A DNA stretch of 34,289 bases. Origin: Candidatus Latescibacterota bacterium (GTDB lineage Bacteria > Latescibacterota > UBA2968 > UBA8231). Shown here in pieces: positions 3,043-30,631 of this stretch (positions within the stretch are counted from its first letter, which is position 1; each line of letters begins with the position of its first letter). The notes beneath the pieces are model-generated. The model was not told where the DNA came from, did not search any database, and was given only the letters and a program-made list of their open reading frames with translations. The position numbers were made by a program, and so were the translations under genes. The DNA is taken from the NCBI GenBank assembly GCA_007136405.1, contig SLHA01000120.1:1-34289 (forward strand), in the 5' to 3' direction.

Positions 3043-3129
3043 GCCGAACAAGCCCATCAACGCCGACAGCCCAAAGCTACGCTCCTTCGTCGCTCCGCTT
3101 TCGGCTGTGGGTTATGGGCAGCGTTCGAC
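3043..3129 (+). other. integron attC-like recombination site
   Basis: An 87-base imperfect palindrome starting two bases after the toxin stop codon. R'' is GCCGAAC (3043-3049) and R' is GTTCGAC (3123-3129). Inside, GCCCAT pairs with ATGGGC and ACAGCCCAAAGC pairs with GCTTTCGGCTGT apart from one mismatch, around a short loop. Size, end cores and unpaired spacers fit attC. The cores deviate from RYYYAAC by a G, as in many environmental integrons (recalled, not checked). Confidence 0.65.
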
Positions 3130-3143
3130 GGAGAAATCAATCT

Positions 3144-4286
3144 ATGAAAATGACACCGAAACAGAATCTTATCGCCGTCCTTTCTGGCGGGGAGCCGCAA
3201 TGGATCCCCGTCTGCATGCATATTGCCAACACCAACAATCTGCCAGGGCATCTGCCACAAGCCCTCCTCGAAGAGCCTCTCGACCGGCTGCACATCAGCG
3301 AGTTCGTAGGGGGCGACATGCTCCATGAAGTCAGCGCAGTCCGCACGAAGGCGAACACAGGCTGGGACATCAAGACTGAGGCTCGCGGGGATATGCGTAT
3401 TTCGACATTGACCACAACGGAAGGCGCTCTGACGCAAGAAGTGATGACTGCCGCAGTTTCCACCCCCGTCTATGATCCCTTACCTGAGGGGCACATTCTT
3501 CCCGGGCCGATCATGAACAGTGTCCATAAAGCCTTTTTCGTAAAGCAACTGTCGGATTACCGGATTCTGAAGTGCTATTACGAAACCCTGACGTACGAAT
3601 GTGACAATAATCTGATCGCCCGCGAGCAGGCGCGCGTAGCTGAGAAAGGCCTTTGCGTTTTGGGTGGCGGGCCTTCCAGTCCGCTGTATGCCTTGGTGTC
3701 AAGTCATGTCGGGATAGAGCGATTGAGCCTTGACCTGTTCGACGATTCGGAGGAGGTGGAGTCAACAATGCAGGTGATGACAGACACTGCCTGTCGCTGG
3801 TACCGCACAGCCGCCGCTTCGCCCTGTGAAGTAATACGTTGCACCGAAGATCTGGATACCAAACTGGTTTCACCCGATTGGTTCAGACGTTACGCCGTGC
3901 CGGCGCTCACGAAATACGCCCGAATCTGTCATGCGGCAGGGAAAAAGTTTGTCATTCATATGTGTGGTCCCGTCAGAGATTTTCTCCAGGACATTAAGGC
4001 AACCGGGGCGGATGCCATCCATTGCCTCACCGCACCTCCCATGGGGAACACCGCCATCCAAGAGGCACGCAGAATGCTACAAGGCCATATGGCGGTCATG
4101 CTGCGCGTGGATGCTCATCTGCTGTTGAGCGGAAGTGTCGGGGAAATTGATTGTGCCGTTGCGAATATGTGCAGCGAATTGGGCGACTGGAATAATGTCC
4201 TGGCAATCATACCATGTGGACGCGCTCCCCTTGAAAACATCCGTCGCGTTATTGATCAATTCCGTAAACAAAACCACCGGAGATGA
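3144..4286 (+). CDS. uroporphyrinogen decarboxylase (URO-D)-family methyltransferase carried as a cassette
   Basis: A 380-residue protein starting at ATG 3144, with GGAG at 3130-3133. It opens with MTPKQNLIAVLSGGEPQWIPV, the standard start of the URO-D superfamily TIM barrel. Near residue 272 it has VIHMCGPVRDF: the H-x-C-G zinc motif of the MtaA/MtbA/CmuA type, in which a zinc-bound thiol takes a methyl group from a corrinoid protein. True HemE enzymes lack this motif, so a methyltransferase is more likely than haem synthesis. The substrate is unknown. The gene is flanked by attC-like sites whose cores complement each other (TTCGAC at 3124; GTCGAAC at 4293), so it looks like a mobile gene cassette, large for that class. 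An in-frame upstream ATG at 3114 lies within the attC and is less likely. Confidence 0.8.
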   Translation: MKMTPKQNLIAVLSGGEPQWIPVCMHIANTNNLPGHLPQALLEEPLDRLHISEFVGGDMLHEVSAVRTKANTGWDIKTEARGDMRISTLTTTEGALTQEVMTAAVSTPVYDPLPEGHILPGPIMNSVHKAFFVKQLSDYRILKCYYETLTYECDNNLIAREQARVAEKGLCVLGGGPSSPLYALVSSHVGIERLSLDLFDDSEEVESTMQVMTDTACRWYRTAAASPCEVIRCTEDLDTKLVSPDWFRRYAVPALTKYARICHAAGKKFVIHMCGPVRDFLQDIKATGADAIHCLTAPPMGNTAIQEARRMLQGHMAVMLRVDAHLLLSGSVGEIDCAVANMCSELGDWNNVLAIIPCGRAPLENIRRVIDQFRKQNHRR

Positions 4287-7695: not shown

Positions 7696-9123
7696 TCAGG
7701 CCAGGTGACGACGCGCCGACTGCAGGATGCGGTCGATCTCGCGCTCCGTGTCGGGGTCCAGGGGGATGGATTCGTGCGAGGCGAGCAGCTGCTCCTTGGC
7801 GGCGATGCAGCGCTGATGCATGCTGGTACCGCCGTCTTCGCGCCAGGCGTCCCAGTAACGGCGGTCGAGCAGTTGCGGGAACCAGAGTTCCTGCCGGAAA
7901 TGGCGCGCCGTATGCTCGTTGTCCAGAAAGCTGCCGTCGTGCCCGACCTGACGGATCACGTCCAGCGCCAGGTGCTCGTCATCCACCTGGAAGCCCTCCA
8001 TGAGGCGTTCGATGTATTGCACGATCTCGTGTTGCAGGAGCAACATCGGCAAGGACGCGGCCTGGTCCACGCCACAGATACCCAGATGACCGAAGATGTC
8101 CGCGCCCGCCAGCACTCCGGAAAGCAGCGTCATCCCCGCCTCCATGCCGGCCTGGGCGTCCGGCAGCTTGCTGTCTGTGAGCCCGACGTTGATGTACACG
8201 GGAAGACCGTAGTGCCTTCCCAGCTGGGCCATGGCCATGGCCATCAATGCCTGTTCCGGACCGGCGAAGATCAGTTGCGTCGTGCGCATGTCGAAGGCGT
8301 GCGGTATGCCGCCGTAACAGACAGGTAGACCGGCACGGATGAGCTGGGTGATGCAGACGCCGGCCAGGATCTCCGCGTTCTCCTGCGCCAGCGTTCCCGC
8401 CAGGGTGGCCGGCGCCGTGGCGCCCACCTGGGCCATGGGACCGATGGGCACCGGCAGCGACAGGCGCGCCGTCTCGAAGAGCAGGTCGATGCCGTCGAAG
8501 GGGAACTTCAACGGGCTGATGGGTTCCAGAAAGGGATAGGCCAGCGGGTAGCGCGTCGCCTCCGTCTCGTTGCCGCGCACCGCTACCATCAGTTCCAGCA
8601 CATACCGGGCGGAGGCGCGGTCCGAGAACCAGAAATGGATGGGTTTGGTGGTGTGGCGCAACTGCGCCGCGGCAACTTCTACACAGCGGTACGCGGTGGG
8701 GATCTCGTGCGGATCCGCCATGGCGCCCACCAGGTCGATGCGCGGCAGCGCGTCTCCCAGGCGGGTAGCGGTCACCACATCGTCCAGACAGGCGTAGCGC
8801 CGCTGCGTGCCCAGGTCGTCTACCCAGAGCGCCTCGCCGGCTATGGAATTGTAGTTGCGCTCGCCTGCACCGAAACGTGCCTGCCGGTTGTGGTCGCGTC
8901 CATACAGGGTGAAAGTCTTGCCGGCCGATTGCAGCGAACTCTCGATCAGGGCGGCAGGAATGAAGACGTGTGCGGTGGTGTCCTCCACCCGGGCGCCGGC
9001 GGATCTGAAGCGCCGGCGTACTTCATCATGGGGTACGCGCACACCCACAGTAGCCAGGATCTCCAGCGAGGCTCCATGGATGCTCTCCAGCTGCTGTGGG
9101 GTGAGACTGCGTAGGGTCAGCAT
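7696..9123 (-). CDS. MttB-superfamily (trimethylamine methyltransferase-like) protein, non-pyrrolysine
   Basis: A 475-residue protein starting MLTLRSLTPQQLESIHGASL and showing the MttB barrel throughout (GEALWVDDLGTQRRYACLDD, FLEPISPLKFPFDGIDLLF, QVGHDGSFLDNEHTARHFR near the end). Pyrrolysine-containing MttB genes have an in-frame TAG; this frame has none, so it belongs to the larger non-Pyl group. Characterised members (MtgB, MtpB, MtcB) demethylate glycine betaine, proline betaine or carnitine onto a corrinoid protein. No corrinoid protein or reductive activase is in the window. It is the first gene of the MttB, URO-D, amidohydrolase operon. An in-frame upstream start (to 9219) exists but adds a low-complexity extension; the start chosen follows family length. 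Confidence 0.85.
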   Translation of the reverse strand: MLTLRSLTPQQLESIHGASLEILATVGVRVPHDEVRRRFRSAGARVEDTTAHVFIPAALIESSLQSAGKTFTLYGRDHNRQARFGAGERNYNSIAGEALWVDDLGTQRRYACLDDVVTATRLGDALPRIDLVGAMADPHEIPTAYRCVEVAAAQLRHTTKPIHFWFSDRASARYVLELMVAVRGNETEATRYPLAYPFLEPISPLKFPFDGIDLLFETARLSLPVPIGPMAQVGATAPATLAGTLAQENAEILAGVCITQLIRAGLPVCYGGIPHAFDMRTTQLIFAGPEQALMAMAMAQLGRHYGLPVYINVGLTDSKLPDAQAGMEAGMTLLSGVLAGADIFGHLGICGVDQAASLPMLLLQHEIVQYIERLMEGFQVDDEHLALDVIRQVGHDGSFLDNEHTARHFRQELWFPQLLDRRYWDAWREDGGTSMHQRCIAAKEQLLASHESIPLDPDTEREIDRILQSARRHLA

Positions 9124-9253
9124 GGTCTCTGCCGTCTGTCGTTGCGGTCTCTTCGCGTGGCCAGGCCCCGAATTCCCGAACATCGAACCCTGGCAGATCG
9201 AATGGGCTGCGGGCGCCATCCAGGGTCCGCCGCGACGCCCCCAGGGACCGAAC

Positions 9254-14939: not shown

Positions 14940-17147
14940 TCAGCAATGCTCCGTGCGTTCCAGCAGCGACGCCTTGAGCGCCGGTGAAAGCCGGTTGAAA
15001 TACTCGGAGTAACCACCCACGCGTACCACCAGATCCTGGTGCCGCTCCGGATGGTCTATGGCCTCGCGCAGGACGGCCTGGTCCACCACGTTGATCTGCA
15101 ACTGCATGCCGCCCAGGTCGAAATAGGTGCGGATGAGACCGATCAAGCGTTCGCGCTGCTCCGGCTCCTGCAGCATGGAGCGTGCGAAGCGTGCGTTTAC
15201 GACCAGCGTTCCGGGGGCCAGATCGTGGGTGATGCGCGTCACGGAGCGCAGCATGGCCGTCGGGCCGTGGTGGTCTCGTCCCTGATATGGCCCGGCGCTG
15301 TCGGCGATCGGCGCGCCGGCGAAACGGCCGTCTGGCGTGGCCATGACGCTTTCGCCGGCGCCGGCATAGGTGACGAACATCAGACAGGCCGGCAGGAAGC
15401 GACCACCGCGCCATGGGGCGTACCGGCGCAGATCGGTGAAGACGAAGCGGGACACCGACGCGGCCAGCTCGTCCGCTTCCGGGTCATCGTTGCCGAAACG
15501 GGGACAGTTGGCCAGCTTTTCCCTGAGCGCCTCATGGCCGGCGAAGTCCGCCCGGAGAGCGTCCCGCAGGTCCGTGCCCGTCAGCATCTGTTCCTGGAAC
15601 ACCAGCCGGCGCACCGCGGCCAGCGAATCCGCCACATTGGCCAGGCCACCTACGTTGACCACGCTCCAGTTGTAACGCGCCCCACCGGCATTGAACTCCA
15701 CGCCCGCATCGATGCAGTCGTCGACCAGCAGAGACCGGATCGGCTGCGGCTGCCACTGGGCCTTGGCTTCCTGGTCGGCGTTGACCTCGGCCACGAGCCG
15801 AGCTATGGCGTGGCGTAGATCGGCGTAATACGCGTTCAGCAGGGCATCGAACCGGTCCGCCACGGGCAGCTCCCGTTCCAGGGTCCGGGTGAGGATCTGC
15901 GGCAGGTTGATCCCGGCATCCAGCGAACCCACGTTGGAGGTGCCGTGCATCATGGTTTCGGTGCATCCCCCGAAGGCGAAATCCGCCAGGTCCTCCTGAC
16001 GGATATTCAGGTGCGCCCGGCGCAGGGCCAACTGATATCCTTCTTCGCTGTACAGGGCGGGAATACCGCAACCCGTGGCGATGGCATCCAGGGCCAGATC
16101 CAGGATGTCGCGCGGTGTGTCGCGGCGGAGGCGCAGGGCCAGATTGGGCCGGCGAATGGACCGGGCCGCCCGTAAACCGGCCCGGGTGAAGCCGTTGTAG
16201 GCCGGCTTGCCCTCCCCGTTGGAACCGCCCAGCGCTACATTCCAGCCCGAGTTGGCGTCCACGTTTTCCCACAGCGCGCGTACCAGCCGGGTTCCATCCT
16301 CTTCCGTAAGCCTGCCGCCGGCGAGGTCCTGGTCGTAGTACGAGCCCAGGTCCTGGTCGATGCGGCCCAGACTGTCGCAGCCATCCAGGTAGTACACGAA
16401 GTTGGCGCAGACCAGGGCTTCGAACAGGTTGCGGGCCGGACTGAACGGCACACGCCGCAGGGCGGCCAGCAACTGCTGCCGCGGGGAGCCGCCGCTGGTC
16501 ACACCTGGGCGCGCGTCACCGGGGTCCGGGGCGCTCTCCAGGTGTGCCAGACAGGCCGCGTGCCAGGCGCGCACTCCGGCTAGAACGTCGATGAGTGCGG
16601 TGCACAGATTGATGGCCTCATCGTCCTTCCGGGCACGGGCCCGCTCCAGGCACTGGCCTATGCGTTCCTGATAGCGGTCCAGCCCTTCACGGGCAATCCG
16701 GCCGAAATTCGGAATGCTGTGGGTGTACCCGGCGCCGCCCAGGCGGAACTCGGGCGATATGGGAGCGCCGACCATCGGGTAGTCGCACAGACACCGGTGC
16801 AGTGCCTTCAGGTCCAAGGCGGTGTCCGGATGGTTCTGGCGCAATTCCTGGCAGACGCGGGCGTCGTAATGCAGGGAGCGGGAGTATTGAAAGGTGACGA
16901 TGCGCCCTCCCTCCCAGATGTTGTACCGGCCGCCCGGGTACAACAGGTGGTCCTCCCAGACAGGAGCCTCACGATTCTCCAGATGACGCCGCAGAGCCCT
17001 GCCCATGCGCTGGACGATGGACTGGGCCGGTGCCTCGAAAAAACCGGCTGCCAGGTGTTCGCCCAACCGGGCCAACGTAGCGACGGCTGGCGCGGTTGGA
17101 ACAACGGGCGCATGTGCATCAAAAGCGTACGCGTGTGCCGTGGTCAT
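14940..17147 (-). CDS. glycyl radical enzyme, pyruvate-formate-lyase superfamily (C-x-E type)
   Basis: A 735-residue protein. Near residue 395 it has ADFAFGGCTETMMHG: the thiyl-radical cysteine (Cys395) with a glutamate two residues on (Glu397), as in the eliminase group (choline lyase CutC, glycerol and propanediol dehydratases). Pyruvate formate-lyase instead has two adjacent cysteines. Near the C-terminus, VVRVGGYSEYFNRLSP gives the glycyl radical site (about Gly712, R-V-x-G-Y-x-x-x-F). Both catalytic loops are intact. The usual PFL N-terminal motifs are divergent and I do not recognise the subfamily, so the substrate is unknown. The required activating radical SAM enzyme is not next to it. 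Location beside methyltransferase, sulfatase and carbohydrate genes suggests a catabolic eliminase or lyase. Confidence 0.88.
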   Translation of the reverse strand: MTTAHAYAFDAHAPVVPTAPAVATLARLGEHLAAGFFEAPAQSIVQRMGRALRRHLENREAPVWEDHLLYPGGRYNIWEGGRIVTFQYSRSLHYDARVCQELRQNHPDTALDLKALHRCLCDYPMVGAPISPEFRLGGAGYTHSIPNFGRIAREGLDRYQERIGQCLERARARKDDEAINLCTALIDVLAGVRAWHAACLAHLESAPDPGDARPGVTSGGSPRQQLLAALRRVPFSPARNLFEALVCANFVYYLDGCDSLGRIDQDLGSYYDQDLAGGRLTEEDGTRLVRALWENVDANSGWNVALGGSNGEGKPAYNGFTRAGLRAARSIRRPNLALRLRRDTPRDILDLALDAIATGCGIPALYSEEGYQLALRRAHLNIRQEDLADFAFGGCTETMMHGTSNVGSLDAGINLPQILTRTLERELPVADRFDALLNAYYADLRHAIARLVAEVNADQEAKAQWQPQPIRSLLVDDCIDAGVEFNAGGARYNWSVVNVGGLANVADSLAAVRRLVFQEQMLTGTDLRDALRADFAGHEALREKLANCPRFGNDDPEADELAASVSRFVFTDLRRYAPWRGGRFLPACLMFVTYAGAGESVMATPDGRFAGAPIADSAGPYQGRDHHGPTAMLRSVTRITHDLAPGTLVVNARFARSMLQEPEQRERLIGLIRTYFDLGGMQLQINVVDQAVLREAIDHPERHQDLVVRVGGYSEYFNRLSPALKASLLERTEHC

Positions 17148-17581: not shown

Positions 17582-18424
17582 TCAATGATTCTGTTTCCTG
17601 ACCGCTCCCTTGACGATGGATTCGGCCAGCCTGGGCCAGAGCAGGTTGAGCACCAGCAGCGCCTTGAGCTTCCATGGAATGATCAGCGTGCGCCGGCGCC
17701 GGCGGATGGACCGGATGATGGCGTGGACCGCATCATCCAAAGGTACCGACTCACGGCTGTGACCGCGCGACGAACGGCCCAGCTGGCGGCCGTCTCCCCC
17801 GAAGGCATGATCGCGCAGCTCCGTACCGCGCAACCAATGCGGCATCACCGTGAGGATATCCACACCACTGCCTTCCAGCTCCATGCGGAGGGTTTCGCAA
17901 AACCCCTGCAGAGCGTGCTTGGAGGCGACGTACCCCGTGTGTAGCGGGACTCCGATCTTGCTCTGGATGGACGATATCACCACGATCATGCCACTGGTTT
18001 TACGCAGCTCCGGCAGGGCGAAGTGAACGCAGTGCAACGCCCCCAGGTAGTTGACTTCCATCAGGCGACGGAACACGTTGAGGTCCTCCACATCCTCGAA
18101 ACGCGACCACATGCTGATACCTGCATTGGCAATCAGGTAATCCACTCGACCGTACTCCGCCACGGTTGAGGCGAGCAGACGCTGGCAGTCTTCCGGCACT
18201 GTCACGTCACCGGTGACCGACAGGGCACGGGCTCCCGCAGCGTGGCAGCGCGCTGCCACGGCTTCCTGCTTTTCGGCCTCCGGAGATAGAAGCGCCAAAT
18301 CTGCGCCCAGAGCGGCGAACTCGGTAGCCAGACGGGCCCCCAGTCCAGATGAAGCGCCGGTGATCACGATAGTGCGGCCGCGGTATTCAGCCGGTACGGA
18401 CGGCGGTTTCTGGCCGGGGCTCAT
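17582..18424 (-). CDS. short-chain dehydrogenase/reductase (DHRS7B/PexRAP-like)
   Basis: A 280-residue classical SDR. TGASSGLG (22-29) is the nucleotide-binding loop, NAG is at 100-102, and Ser151/152 with Tyr165-x-x-x-Lys169 (GYVASK) form the catalytic set. The C-terminus has a basic RRRRR stretch and a hydrophobic segment (LKALLVLNLLWP), suggesting membrane association. The overall style (MPHWLRGTELRD; the basic and hydrophobic tail) resembles DHRS7B-type SDRs. Mammalian DHRS7B/PexRAP reduces acyl/alkyl-dihydroxyacetone phosphate, the step right after alkylglycerone-phosphate synthase. Its ATG directly follows the TGA of exactly such a synthase gene (TGAATG), so it is translationally coupled to it. 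The substrate assignment rests on this context. Confidence 0.85.
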   Translation of the reverse strand: MSPGQKPPSVPAEYRGRTIVITGASSGLGARLATEFAALGADLALLSPEAEKQEAVAARCHAAGARALSVTGDVTVPEDCQRLLASTVAEYGRVDYLIANAGISMWSRFEDVEDLNVFRRLMEVNYLGALHCVHFALPELRKTSGMIVVISSIQSKIGVPLHTGYVASKHALQGFCETLRMELEGSGVDILTVMPHWLRGTELRDHAFGGDGRQLGRSSRGHSRESVPLDDAVHAIIRSIRRRRRTLIIPWKLKALLVLNLLWPRLAESIVKGAVRKQNH

Positions 18425-20293
18425 TCAGTCCTCGTCAGCGGGCTTGTCCGTGCTGGTGCACACATTGTTGGCGATGGCGAAGATATTGGCCGGATCCATG
18501 GCCAGCTTCAGCTGACGCACTACGGCGATGCTGTTGGGTGTCTGGATCTGGTCCAGAAAACCCTGGCGGATCTTGCCGATACCGTGGTGATGAGACAGCG
18601 AGCCGCCGTTATCCAGGATGGTCTGACGGATGTGCTGTTCGATGGCATGATACACACGGGTTCGATCCGCCAGGTTACGCCCGCTGAAACCCATGGTAAA
18701 ATAGACACAGACGCCGGTCTGGTAGGTCTGGGTGACGCGGTAGGACAGATAAGGACGGCCTTCCACCCCATGCGTCCGGCACTGCTCGAACAAGGCCTTT
18801 TCCGCGGCGCTGGTTACCGGTCCAATGCGGTTCCAGGGTACCGTCGTCTCGAATGTCTCGCCGATGATGTGGAACTGGTTGAAGAACTCCCTGATATAGG
18901 CGATGGCGAAAGTGAGCATGTACCCGCGCTTGCCGTTGCTGGAGCCGCCGCTGACACCGCCGTATTTCTTGCCCGTACTGAACACCACGCGCCGCTGATG
19001 GCGCACCTCCGCCGGGGTGCCTTCCATCAGGATGGTGCAGGCGCACATCTCCAGCGGCCGAAAGCCCAGAATCTTCAGAAGCACGAATTTCTGCACTGCG
19101 GTGACGATCCTGCGACAACGCCTTGCTTCCGGTTTGAGTGCCTGGCCAAAGCGGAACTCGAAATTATTGACCAGCCGAATGCTGGCCGGCAGAACCCCCT
19201 GCCGCTGGCGCAATTCCTTGAGAAACGCCACGCCGCGCTCGAAGGTGGGGAACACCAGCGAGCCATACTGCTGGGCCTGCGGTTTGGGGTGGATTTTGAG
19301 CACGGCGCGGGTGATGATGCCGAAGTTGCCCTCGCTGCCGAAGAGGAAATACTTGGGCTGAACCCCCACCGAGTTGCGCGGGGTGGGATGGTGCATTTCG
19401 ATCGCACCGGTGGGCGTAACCACCGTGGCCTCGATGACGATATCCTCGATGTTGCCGTAGCGGTTTTTCTTCATGCCGCTGGCATGGGTGGATATCCAGC
19501 CTCCAAGGGTGGACAGTTCCACGCTGTCCGGATCATGGCCCGAGGTATACCCGCGTTCCAGCAGCTCGCGCTCCAGGGTCATGCCGAGTATGCCGGCCTC
19601 GACGCCGGCCTGCAGGTTGTCTTCGTCCACCCACAGGATGCGGTTCATCCGGCGCATGTCAACCACGGCGATGTGCCTCCGCTCCGCGACGGGGAGGGTG
19701 AGGGCGCCGCTGACATTGGTGCCGCCGCCGTAGGGGACCAGGACGACCTGGTGGGTGCCGGCCAGCCGGACGATGTGACGGACTTGATCTTCGTTCTCTG
19801 GATACAGGACCACATCGGCAAGCCGCTCCGGGGGGCTGTCGTACAGGAGCCGGTAAACTTCGTCGACGCTGAGTTGCCCATGACTGTGGGCCAGGCGATC
19901 CTGGTCATCCTGGCAGATCTGACCTGCGTCGAGCACGGCGTTCAGGGCCCGCAGGAAACCATCATCGCCAACCGGCGCTGGCAGGTGTTCGTACCGGAGC
20001 TCGGACTCGGCATCCTCGGGACGGATGGGTACCTGCAGAACCTCCTCCGCAAACGGAACGAACTCCGGCATAACCGTGCCTGAGATGGGGTAGCGGCTGC
20101 CGGTGACCCGGATTCGACGCGGGGCATCAAAGACGAACTGGGTATCGGTAAACCCCCAGCGGTGCCGGTATGGCTCTCCTTCGTCGAAGGAGTAGGAATA
20201 TTCCAGCGCCTTTCCCGGTCTGCCGCGGCGCAGGATGCCGACTATGATTACCGCCGCCAGTACCAGTGTGATGACCGACGCAACTACCACCAT
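18425..20293 (-). CDS. alkylglycerone-phosphate synthase-like FAD enzyme with a membrane anchor
   Basis: A 622-residue protein; the ATG at 20293 follows AAGGAGAT on the minus strand. Residues ~2-20 (VVVASVITLVLAAVIIVGIL) are a membrane anchor. The PCMH-type FAD domain shows VLVPYGGGTNVSGAL, TSGHDPDSVELSTLGGWIST, YGNIEDIVIEATVVTP and LFGSEGNFGIITRAVLKIHP. The substrate domain ends with SLSHHHGIGKIR, whose three histidines (about 568-570) match the essential His triad of eukaryotic AGPS. AGPS exchanges the acyl chain of acyl-DHAP for a fatty alcohol, forming the ether bond of ether lipids. Related FAD oxidases (GlcD, D-lactate dehydrogenase) share the FAD domain but usually lack the HHH motif. 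It is followed directly by the coupled reductase gene. Confidence 0.85.
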   Translation of the reverse strand: MVVVASVITLVLAAVIIVGILRRGRPGKALEYSYSFDEGEPYRHRWGFTDTQFVFDAPRRIRVTGSRYPISGTVMPEFVPFAEEVLQVPIRPEDAESELRYEHLPAPVGDDGFLRALNAVLDAGQICQDDQDRLAHSHGQLSVDEVYRLLYDSPPERLADVVLYPENEDQVRHIVRLAGTHQVVLVPYGGGTNVSGALTLPVAERRHIAVVDMRRMNRILWVDEDNLQAGVEAGILGMTLERELLERGYTSGHDPDSVELSTLGGWISTHASGMKKNRYGNIEDIVIEATVVTPTGAIEMHHPTPRNSVGVQPKYFLFGSEGNFGIITRAVLKIHPKPQAQQYGSLVFPTFERGVAFLKELRQRQGVLPASIRLVNNFEFRFGQALKPEARRCRRIVTAVQKFVLLKILGFRPLEMCACTILMEGTPAEVRHQRRVVFSTGKKYGGVSGGSSNGKRGYMLTFAIAYIREFFNQFHIIGETFETTVPWNRIGPVTSAAEKALFEQCRTHGVEGRPYLSYRVTQTYQTGVCVYFTMGFSGRNLADRTRVYHAIEQHIRQTILDNGGSLSHHHGIGKIRQGFLDQIQTPNSIAVVRQLKLAMDPANIFAIANNVCTSTDKPADED

Positions 20294-20393
20294 ATGGATC
20301 GATCTCCTTGCTTCCGGCAAAATTCCGGCAGGGCTTCCGGCACACGGGACCACGCCCGGTAACCGGCTTCCGGACCGGAGATAACCCGGGATA

Positions 20394-29809: not shown

Positions 29810-30631
29810 TCAGCCTTGCGGTGCACACGGGGACACGGCGCCGGCTTGTGGCGCGGTGCTCCATTCCTGCAGGCATTGCTGAATGAAATCGACGGTTGCC
29901 TGTTGTTCCTCTGCACCGCGTTTCTGCACCGTCATGGGAGGGCCGAAGGCGAAACGTACTTCCTTGGAGGGATCGACCGGGCCGAAATCCTTCAGATACT
30001 TGCCGTTGCCCCAGGCATCGGTTTTCAGGGCCAGCGGCACCACCGGGACGCCGGCGCGGTGCGCCAGCTTTACGCCGAGGCTGGTGAACCGGGAGGGATC
30101 AAAGGAGGTGGTGCGGGTGGTCTGTGGAAAGACGACGATGGACAGCCCCTGGCGAACTCTGTCCGATCCCTCCTCCAGCACTTTTTTCAGGTCCTGCCGG
30201 GGATGCGTGCGGCTCACGGCGACGGGGTTCAGGGCTCGCATGATCGGACCGAACACCGGGTACGTGAGCAGGCTCTGTTTGACGATGAAGGTGAGCGGGC
30301 GAAAGGGATGTATGATGATGGGCAAGACCACCGTTTCCAGAGCGCTCATGTGGTTGGCGATGATCACGCACGATGAGTTCAGATCGCGGATGTGGTTGAT
30401 GCCGGTGACCTCTATGGCAATGCCCAGCCGTTCCAGCAATCTGAAACAGGCAAGTGTGCTGCGGCACAGTTGATCATCGTCGAAGCGTTTCTGTCTGGCG
30501 CATCGGTTGGCGTGCAGTACGATGCGCAGGAAGGGCAGGTACAGGGAGAGCGAAGGGCATAGCCTGGCCCGCAGAGGTATGCTGCGGGGTTCGCTGCGGT
30601 AGGTATCGTCGCTGAACTCCAGCCAACTCAT
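29810..30631 (-). CDS. PlsC-like lysophospholipid acyltransferase
   Basis: A 273-residue LPLAT-family protein. CVIIANHMSALETVVLP carries the catalytic motif as H94-x4-E99, glutamate replacing the usual aspartate. VVFPQTTRTTSFDPSRF stands for the FPEGTRS motif with Q for E and T for G, and GVPVVPLALKTDAWG is motif IV. These variants form a consistent subgroup signature, so they do not by themselves mean inactivity. The N-terminal LYLPFLRIVLHANR segment may associate with the membrane. The normal reaction adds an acyl chain to lysophosphatidic acid. With the alkylglycerone-phosphate synthase and reductase 10 kb away it could complete alkyl-acyl-glycerol phosphate, but linkage is not demonstrated. 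Confidence 0.8.
   Translation of the reverse strand: MSWLEFSDDTYRSEPRSIPLRARLCPSLSLYLPFLRIVLHANRCARQKRFDDDQLCRSTLACFRLLERLGIAIEVTGINHIRDLNSSCVIIANHMSALETVVLPIIIHPFRPLTFIVKQSLLTYPVFGPIMRALNPVAVSRTHPRQDLKKVLEEGSDRVRQGLSIVVFPQTTRTTSFDPSRFTSLGVKLAHRAGVPVVPLALKTDAWGNGKYLKDFGPVDPSKEVRFAFGPPMTVQKRGAEEQQATVDFIQQCLQEWSTAPQAGAVSPCAPQG

Follow-up and report, generated by a model that had tools for sequence, protein, structure and literature searches.

The window analysed here is a stretch of 34,289 nucleotides from a Candidatus Latescibacterota genome (contig SLHA01000120.1), and at 17582-20293, on the minus strand, it carries a two-gene unit encoding an alkylglycerone-phosphate synthase (AGPS) and an SDR reductase. 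Direct reading of the AGPS gene (18425-20293, 622 aa) places its ATG start at 20293, its TGA stop at 18427-18425, and its ribosome-binding site, AAGGAG, at 20304-20309 on the same strand, ending 10 bases upstream of the ATG; past the AGPS start lies a DUF134 gene in divergent orientation. The SDR gene (17582-18424, minus strand, 280 aa) is intact and begins with an ATG at 18424 immediately after the AGPS stop, so that the junction reads TGAATG (GACTGAATGAGC). An earlier note on this DNA had the two genes fused by translation at this point; they do adjoin there and are probably translationally coupled, but they are separate open reading frames and not a fusion. The G+C content of the pair equals that of the window (0.62), and there is thus no sign of recent import.

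Judged by its sequence, the product of 18425-20293 is a true member of the AGPS family (EC 2.5.1.26). In a phmmer comparison with all PDB chains its residues 45-609 match guinea-pig AGPS (4bby) with 497 bits, Dictyostelium AGPS (2uuu) scores 296 bits, and its identity to the guinea-pig enzyme is 42.1% over 560 aligned residues, a level equal to the approximately 42% reported between Myxococcus MXAN_1676 and human AGPS (PMC9131029). The His triad to which the earlier note drew attention is real: it lies within GSLSHHHG at residues 568-570 and aligns with guinea-pig H615-H617. The remainder of the catalytic set is also kept, with R373, R468 and Y531 corresponding to guinea-pig R419, R515 and Y578, and guinea-pig H300, D303, T309 and L469 are likewise unchanged in the alignment. 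R419 and Y578 are the positions altered in the guinea-pig mutant chains 4bc7 and 4bca, and the Dictyostelium equivalents of the two arginines and the tyrosine (R352, R447 and Y508) are reported to be important for catalysis (PMC3509576). A hydrophobic helix occupies residues 2-20 at the N-terminus.

Pfam reports only the general FAD_binding_4 and FAD-oxidase_C domains in this protein, and its NCBIfam GlcD match lies far below cut-off, observations that would fit a lactate, glycolate or other 2-hydroxyacid dehydrogenase that merely resembles AGPS. We rejected that identity as highly improbable, given that the best redox match, to D-lactate dehydrogenase, scores 87 bits against the 497 bits for AGPS and is confined to residues 113-362, and that the three histidines and the Tyr/Arg/Arg set are retained. 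The phylogeny of the flavoenzyme proposed in the earlier note points the same way, as a branch with 100/100 support in a maximum-likelihood tree parts AGPS and the window protein from GlcD, LctD, D-LDH and D2HGDH-like enzymes, and the GlcD-type paralogues of the same genome fall on the redox side of that branch; within the AGPS side, long branches leave the branching order unsure.

The downstream gene product matches PF00106 (E 1.7e-46) and NCBIfam PRK06181 (292 bits, cut-off 215), and its cofactor site and catalytic YxxxK are intact. The motifs TGASSGLG (residues 22-29), NAG (100-102) and YVASK (165-169) are common to all classical SDRs and so are weak evidence of an alkyl/acyl-DHAP reductase, its PDB matches are other SDRs, and identities among SDRs are reported seldom to exceed 30% (PMC13256971). 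The strongest evidence for its proposed role as an alkyl/acyl-DHAP reductase (EC 1.1.1.101, the activity of DHRS7B/PexRAP and Ayr1) is its linkage to AGPS. With a threshold of E<=1e-55, orthologues were identified in 37 of 60 genomes searched, and in 36 of these 37 genomes the gene follows AGPS directly in the same orientation, with gaps ranging from -20 to 1795 bases and a median of about 36. This recurrence, with AGPS itself in 42 of the 47 class genomes, is far from what chance would give. Several families of the class to which this genome belongs thus show the SDR as the regular companion of AGPS, and all five class genomes that lack AGPS also lack the SDR orthologue.

AGPS needs both acyl-DHAP and a fatty alcohol. 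The earlier proposal of a two-gene ether-lipid unit of the AGPS type stands as far as the identity of AGPS and its partnership with the SDR are concerned, but the pair is not a stand-alone pathway; candidates for the missing functions are encoded at other places in this genome and, in sister families, within the operon itself. In families f3 and f4 the operon order is FAR (NAD_binding_4 plus Sterile), a protein designated C3, AGPS and SDR, and in family f2 an acyl-CoA synthetase (ACS) gene precedes the same four. Several genomes have the FAR-C3-AGPS-SDR operon divergent from a short gene that is followed by fabH and fabD; the position next to fabH is the usual one for bacterial plsX. Family f1, to which the window's genome belongs, has the AGPS-SDR pair standing alone, with C3 located elsewhere.

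C3 is an HX4D protein of about 650 aa with no confident Pfam match, encoded in the window's own genome on the minus strand of another contig (G000:C151:1140-3023; L113:1119-3338). Its blocks PTHQSLLDH, a later EGTT or MGTT, and IVPLAFRG occur in the order of the glycerolipid acyltransferase blocks, an assignment that is our own; PTHQSLLDH together with EGTT is present in some f1 members, and others have HX4E or MGTT/AGTT. Matches to PF01553 are weak in 12 of 20 members and exceed the Pfam cut-off in three relatives (G005, G024 and G019), an hhalign comparison with PlsC gave a weak, 16-column match at block I only, and profile searches of the PDB with C3 returned no match. We consider C3 a probable unrecognised family of glycerolipid acyltransferases and, from similarity at the motif level only, a probable DHAP acyltransferase; it could instead use G3P or do something else. 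The fatty alcohol in this genome is probably supplied by the FAR part of an ElbD-like protein of 1481 aa on contig C21 (L048:11324-15769), which has NAD_binding_4 and Sterile (FAR), AMP-binding (ACS) and weak acyltransferase matches; no carrier domain was detected in it by Pfam.

A comparison of 47 genomes of the class with 13 genomes from other classes of the same phylum reveals a reciprocal distribution. AGPS is present in 42 of the 47 class genomes and C3 in 46, whereas neither occurs in the 13 others, and AGPS is similarly absent from all 17 genomes outside the class when the 64 phylum genomes are searched. In contrast, PlsY (PF02660) is found in 11 of the 13 other-class genomes and PlsX (PF02504) in 12, and all 47 class genomes lack PlsY and show no PlsX match over cut-off. 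PlsY was likewise not found in the window's own genome, which is only 86.7% complete; the absence of both proteins extends, however, to two single-contig class genomes estimated to be about 99% complete (G027 and G030). These two also give no sign of PlsB, since the sole PF01553 protein in each, of about 223-241 aa, is PlsC-sized. The pattern suggests that C3, AGPS, SDR and FAR replaced PlsX and PlsY on one occasion, in the class's ancestor, and because it may reflect a single evolutionary event, the small Fisher p-values obtained for 47 against 13 genomes overstate the independence of the observations. We note that the AGPS genes of two class genomes, G002 (TAA; L029) and G046 (TGA; L033), each have one stop inside the match, possibly representing end-of-match stops, frame errors or decay.

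The interpretation that we favour, with a probability of roughly 0.8, is that the AGPS-SDR pair provides steps two and three of a peroxisome-like, DHAP-based ether-lipid pathway, and that this route seems to replace PlsX/PlsY across the class, which would thus begin its glycerolipids by a DHAP/ether route. The reactions, substrates and direction assigned to C3 and the SDR, like ether-lipid production itself, are what we infer from sequence. C3 (on C151 in this genome) would supply acyl-DHAP; AGPS, which is FAD-dependent and needs no O2, would replace the acyl chain on 1-acyl-DHAP by a fatty alcohol to give alkyl-DHAP; and the SDR, with NAD(P)H, would reduce alkyl-DHAP, and perhaps acyl-DHAP too, yielding 1-alkyl-sn-glycerol-3-phosphate. 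A PlsC-type enzyme would then attach the sn-2 acyl chain. A possible sn-2 acyltransferase is encoded within the window at 29810-30631 (minus strand) by a divergent PlsC-type gene (PF01553, 66 bits) in which HX4E and FPQTTR replace HX4D and PEGTR; a scan of the genome for PF01553 finds just one other protein over cut-off.

Such a pathway could shape the membranes to different degrees. In the strongest version, the whole class has lost PlsX and PlsY and, through a eukaryote-like route of FAR, HX4D acyltransferase, AGPS and SDR, builds membranes mainly of 1-alkyl-2-acyl phospholipids, which we put at somewhat below an even chance. Just as plausible is that ether lipids are minor or serve in signalling, and that C3 acts as a G3P acyltransferase analogous to PlsB and makes the bulk ester lipids, with AGPS tapping a small pool of acyl-DHAP. 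In genus g4, four of five genomes (G008, G011, G014 and G017) lack AGPS, SDR, PlsX and PlsY and yet keep C3, as would be expected if C3 were the general enzyme, and these losses show that AGPS ether synthesis is not strictly required by the PlsX/PlsY replacement; moreover, disruption of AGPS in Myxococcus lowers ether lipids only slightly, ElbD being dominant there (PMC9131029). The f2-f4 operons, on the other hand, place C3 between FAR and AGPS, where an acyltransferase that feeds acyl-DHAP to AGPS is expected.

The same g4 genomes bear on whether the SDR mainly converts acyl-DHAP to lysophosphatidate, such that ester lipids arise by the DHAP route, AGPS diverts part of the flow to ether lipids and the membrane is mixed. 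The mammalian enzyme is described as an acyl/alkyl-DHAP reductase (PMC7517302), and the SDR does accompany AGPS; but in these four genomes it is missing along with AGPS and so goes with AGPS rather than with the general C3 step, and we consider a mixed membrane of this origin rather unlikely.

A separate matter is the anaerobic PlsA/PlsR (Ger) route, which also yields bacterial ether lipids but works by reduction of a pre-formed ester lipid and involves neither DHAP nor an alcohol. The contrast with PlsA/PlsR drawn in the earlier note holds for most of the class, in that 45 of the 47 class genomes have no DUF2229 match over cut-off, whereas DUF2229 matches occur in every other-class genome examined; it does not extend to the window's own genome, which encodes a PlsA-like BcrAD/DUF2229 protein (G000:C134; L127:2-2995) of 998 aa, cut by the contig end, and in which a second ether route is therefore possible. 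A PlsA-like BcrAD/DUF2229 protein of 1195 aa is also present in G007 (C20; L129:1599-5186).

Bacterial AGPS is already known, in Myxococcus (MXAN_1676) and, as sequence homologues, across many phyla; taken by itself, the pair adds one more case to a known type. The Myxococcus xanthus operon MXAN_1676-1674 encodes AGPS, a FAR1-GNPAT fusion and an NAD-dependent epimerase/dehydratase (PMC9131029), and shares with the arrangement described here an AGPS about 42% identical to its mammalian counterpart, the linkage of AGPS both to functions of the FAR/acyltransferase kind and to a reductase-like, NAD-dependent gene, and the presence of an ElbD-like protein in the genome. In the class, by contrast, FAR and the acyltransferase are separate genes (or FAR lies within ElbD), a classical SDR encoded immediately after AGPS supplies the reductase, and PlsX and PlsY are missing throughout. 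ElbD-type clusters are also known in sponge symbionts (PMC9426513). Agps homologues have been reported across many phyla in Black Sea metagenome-assembled genomes, including 67 of 92 Latescibacterota and 120 of 347 Myxococcota (PMC11868695); neither the AGPS-SDR pair nor the FAR-C3-AGPS-SDR operon nor a loss of PlsX/PlsY is mentioned in the available part of that report. The likeness to the peroxisomal pathway of animals and protists (FAR1, GNPAT, AGPS and DHRS7B) lies in the inferred order of steps and in the AGPS catalytic residues; here, by contrast, the system is bacterial, AGPS has an N-terminal hydrophobic helix, and C3 is similar to GPAT/GNPAT only at the level of motifs.

What appears to be new is the class-wide context, the FAR-C3-AGPS-SDR arrangement with PlsX and PlsY missing, and we found no description in the openly licensed literature of an AGPS operon replacing PlsX/PlsY. 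Since AGPS and its partners turn up where PlsX and PlsY have been lost, this may be the principal route by which membrane lipids are begun. It offers enzymology a bacterial counterpart of the human RCDP pathway within one operon and bears on the bacterial origin of peroxisomal ether-lipid enzymes.

DHAP-based ether synthesis has been regarded as a hallmark of aerobes (PMC9702350). A gene for a PFL-like glycyl-radical enzyme of 735 aa, which falls short of all NCBIfam equivalog cut-offs, lies 434 bases downstream of the SDR (14940-17147, minus strand); it suggests an at least facultatively anaerobic life, and its presence next to the pair raises the possibility that the route works without oxygen. 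Elsewhere in the window, an MtaA/CmuA-like methyltransferase (3114-4286, plus strand) and an MTTB-family methyltransferase (7696-9219, minus strand) point to anaerobic metabolism of methylated compounds, and an IS110 family RNA-guided transposase is encoded at 1293-2312 on the minus strand.
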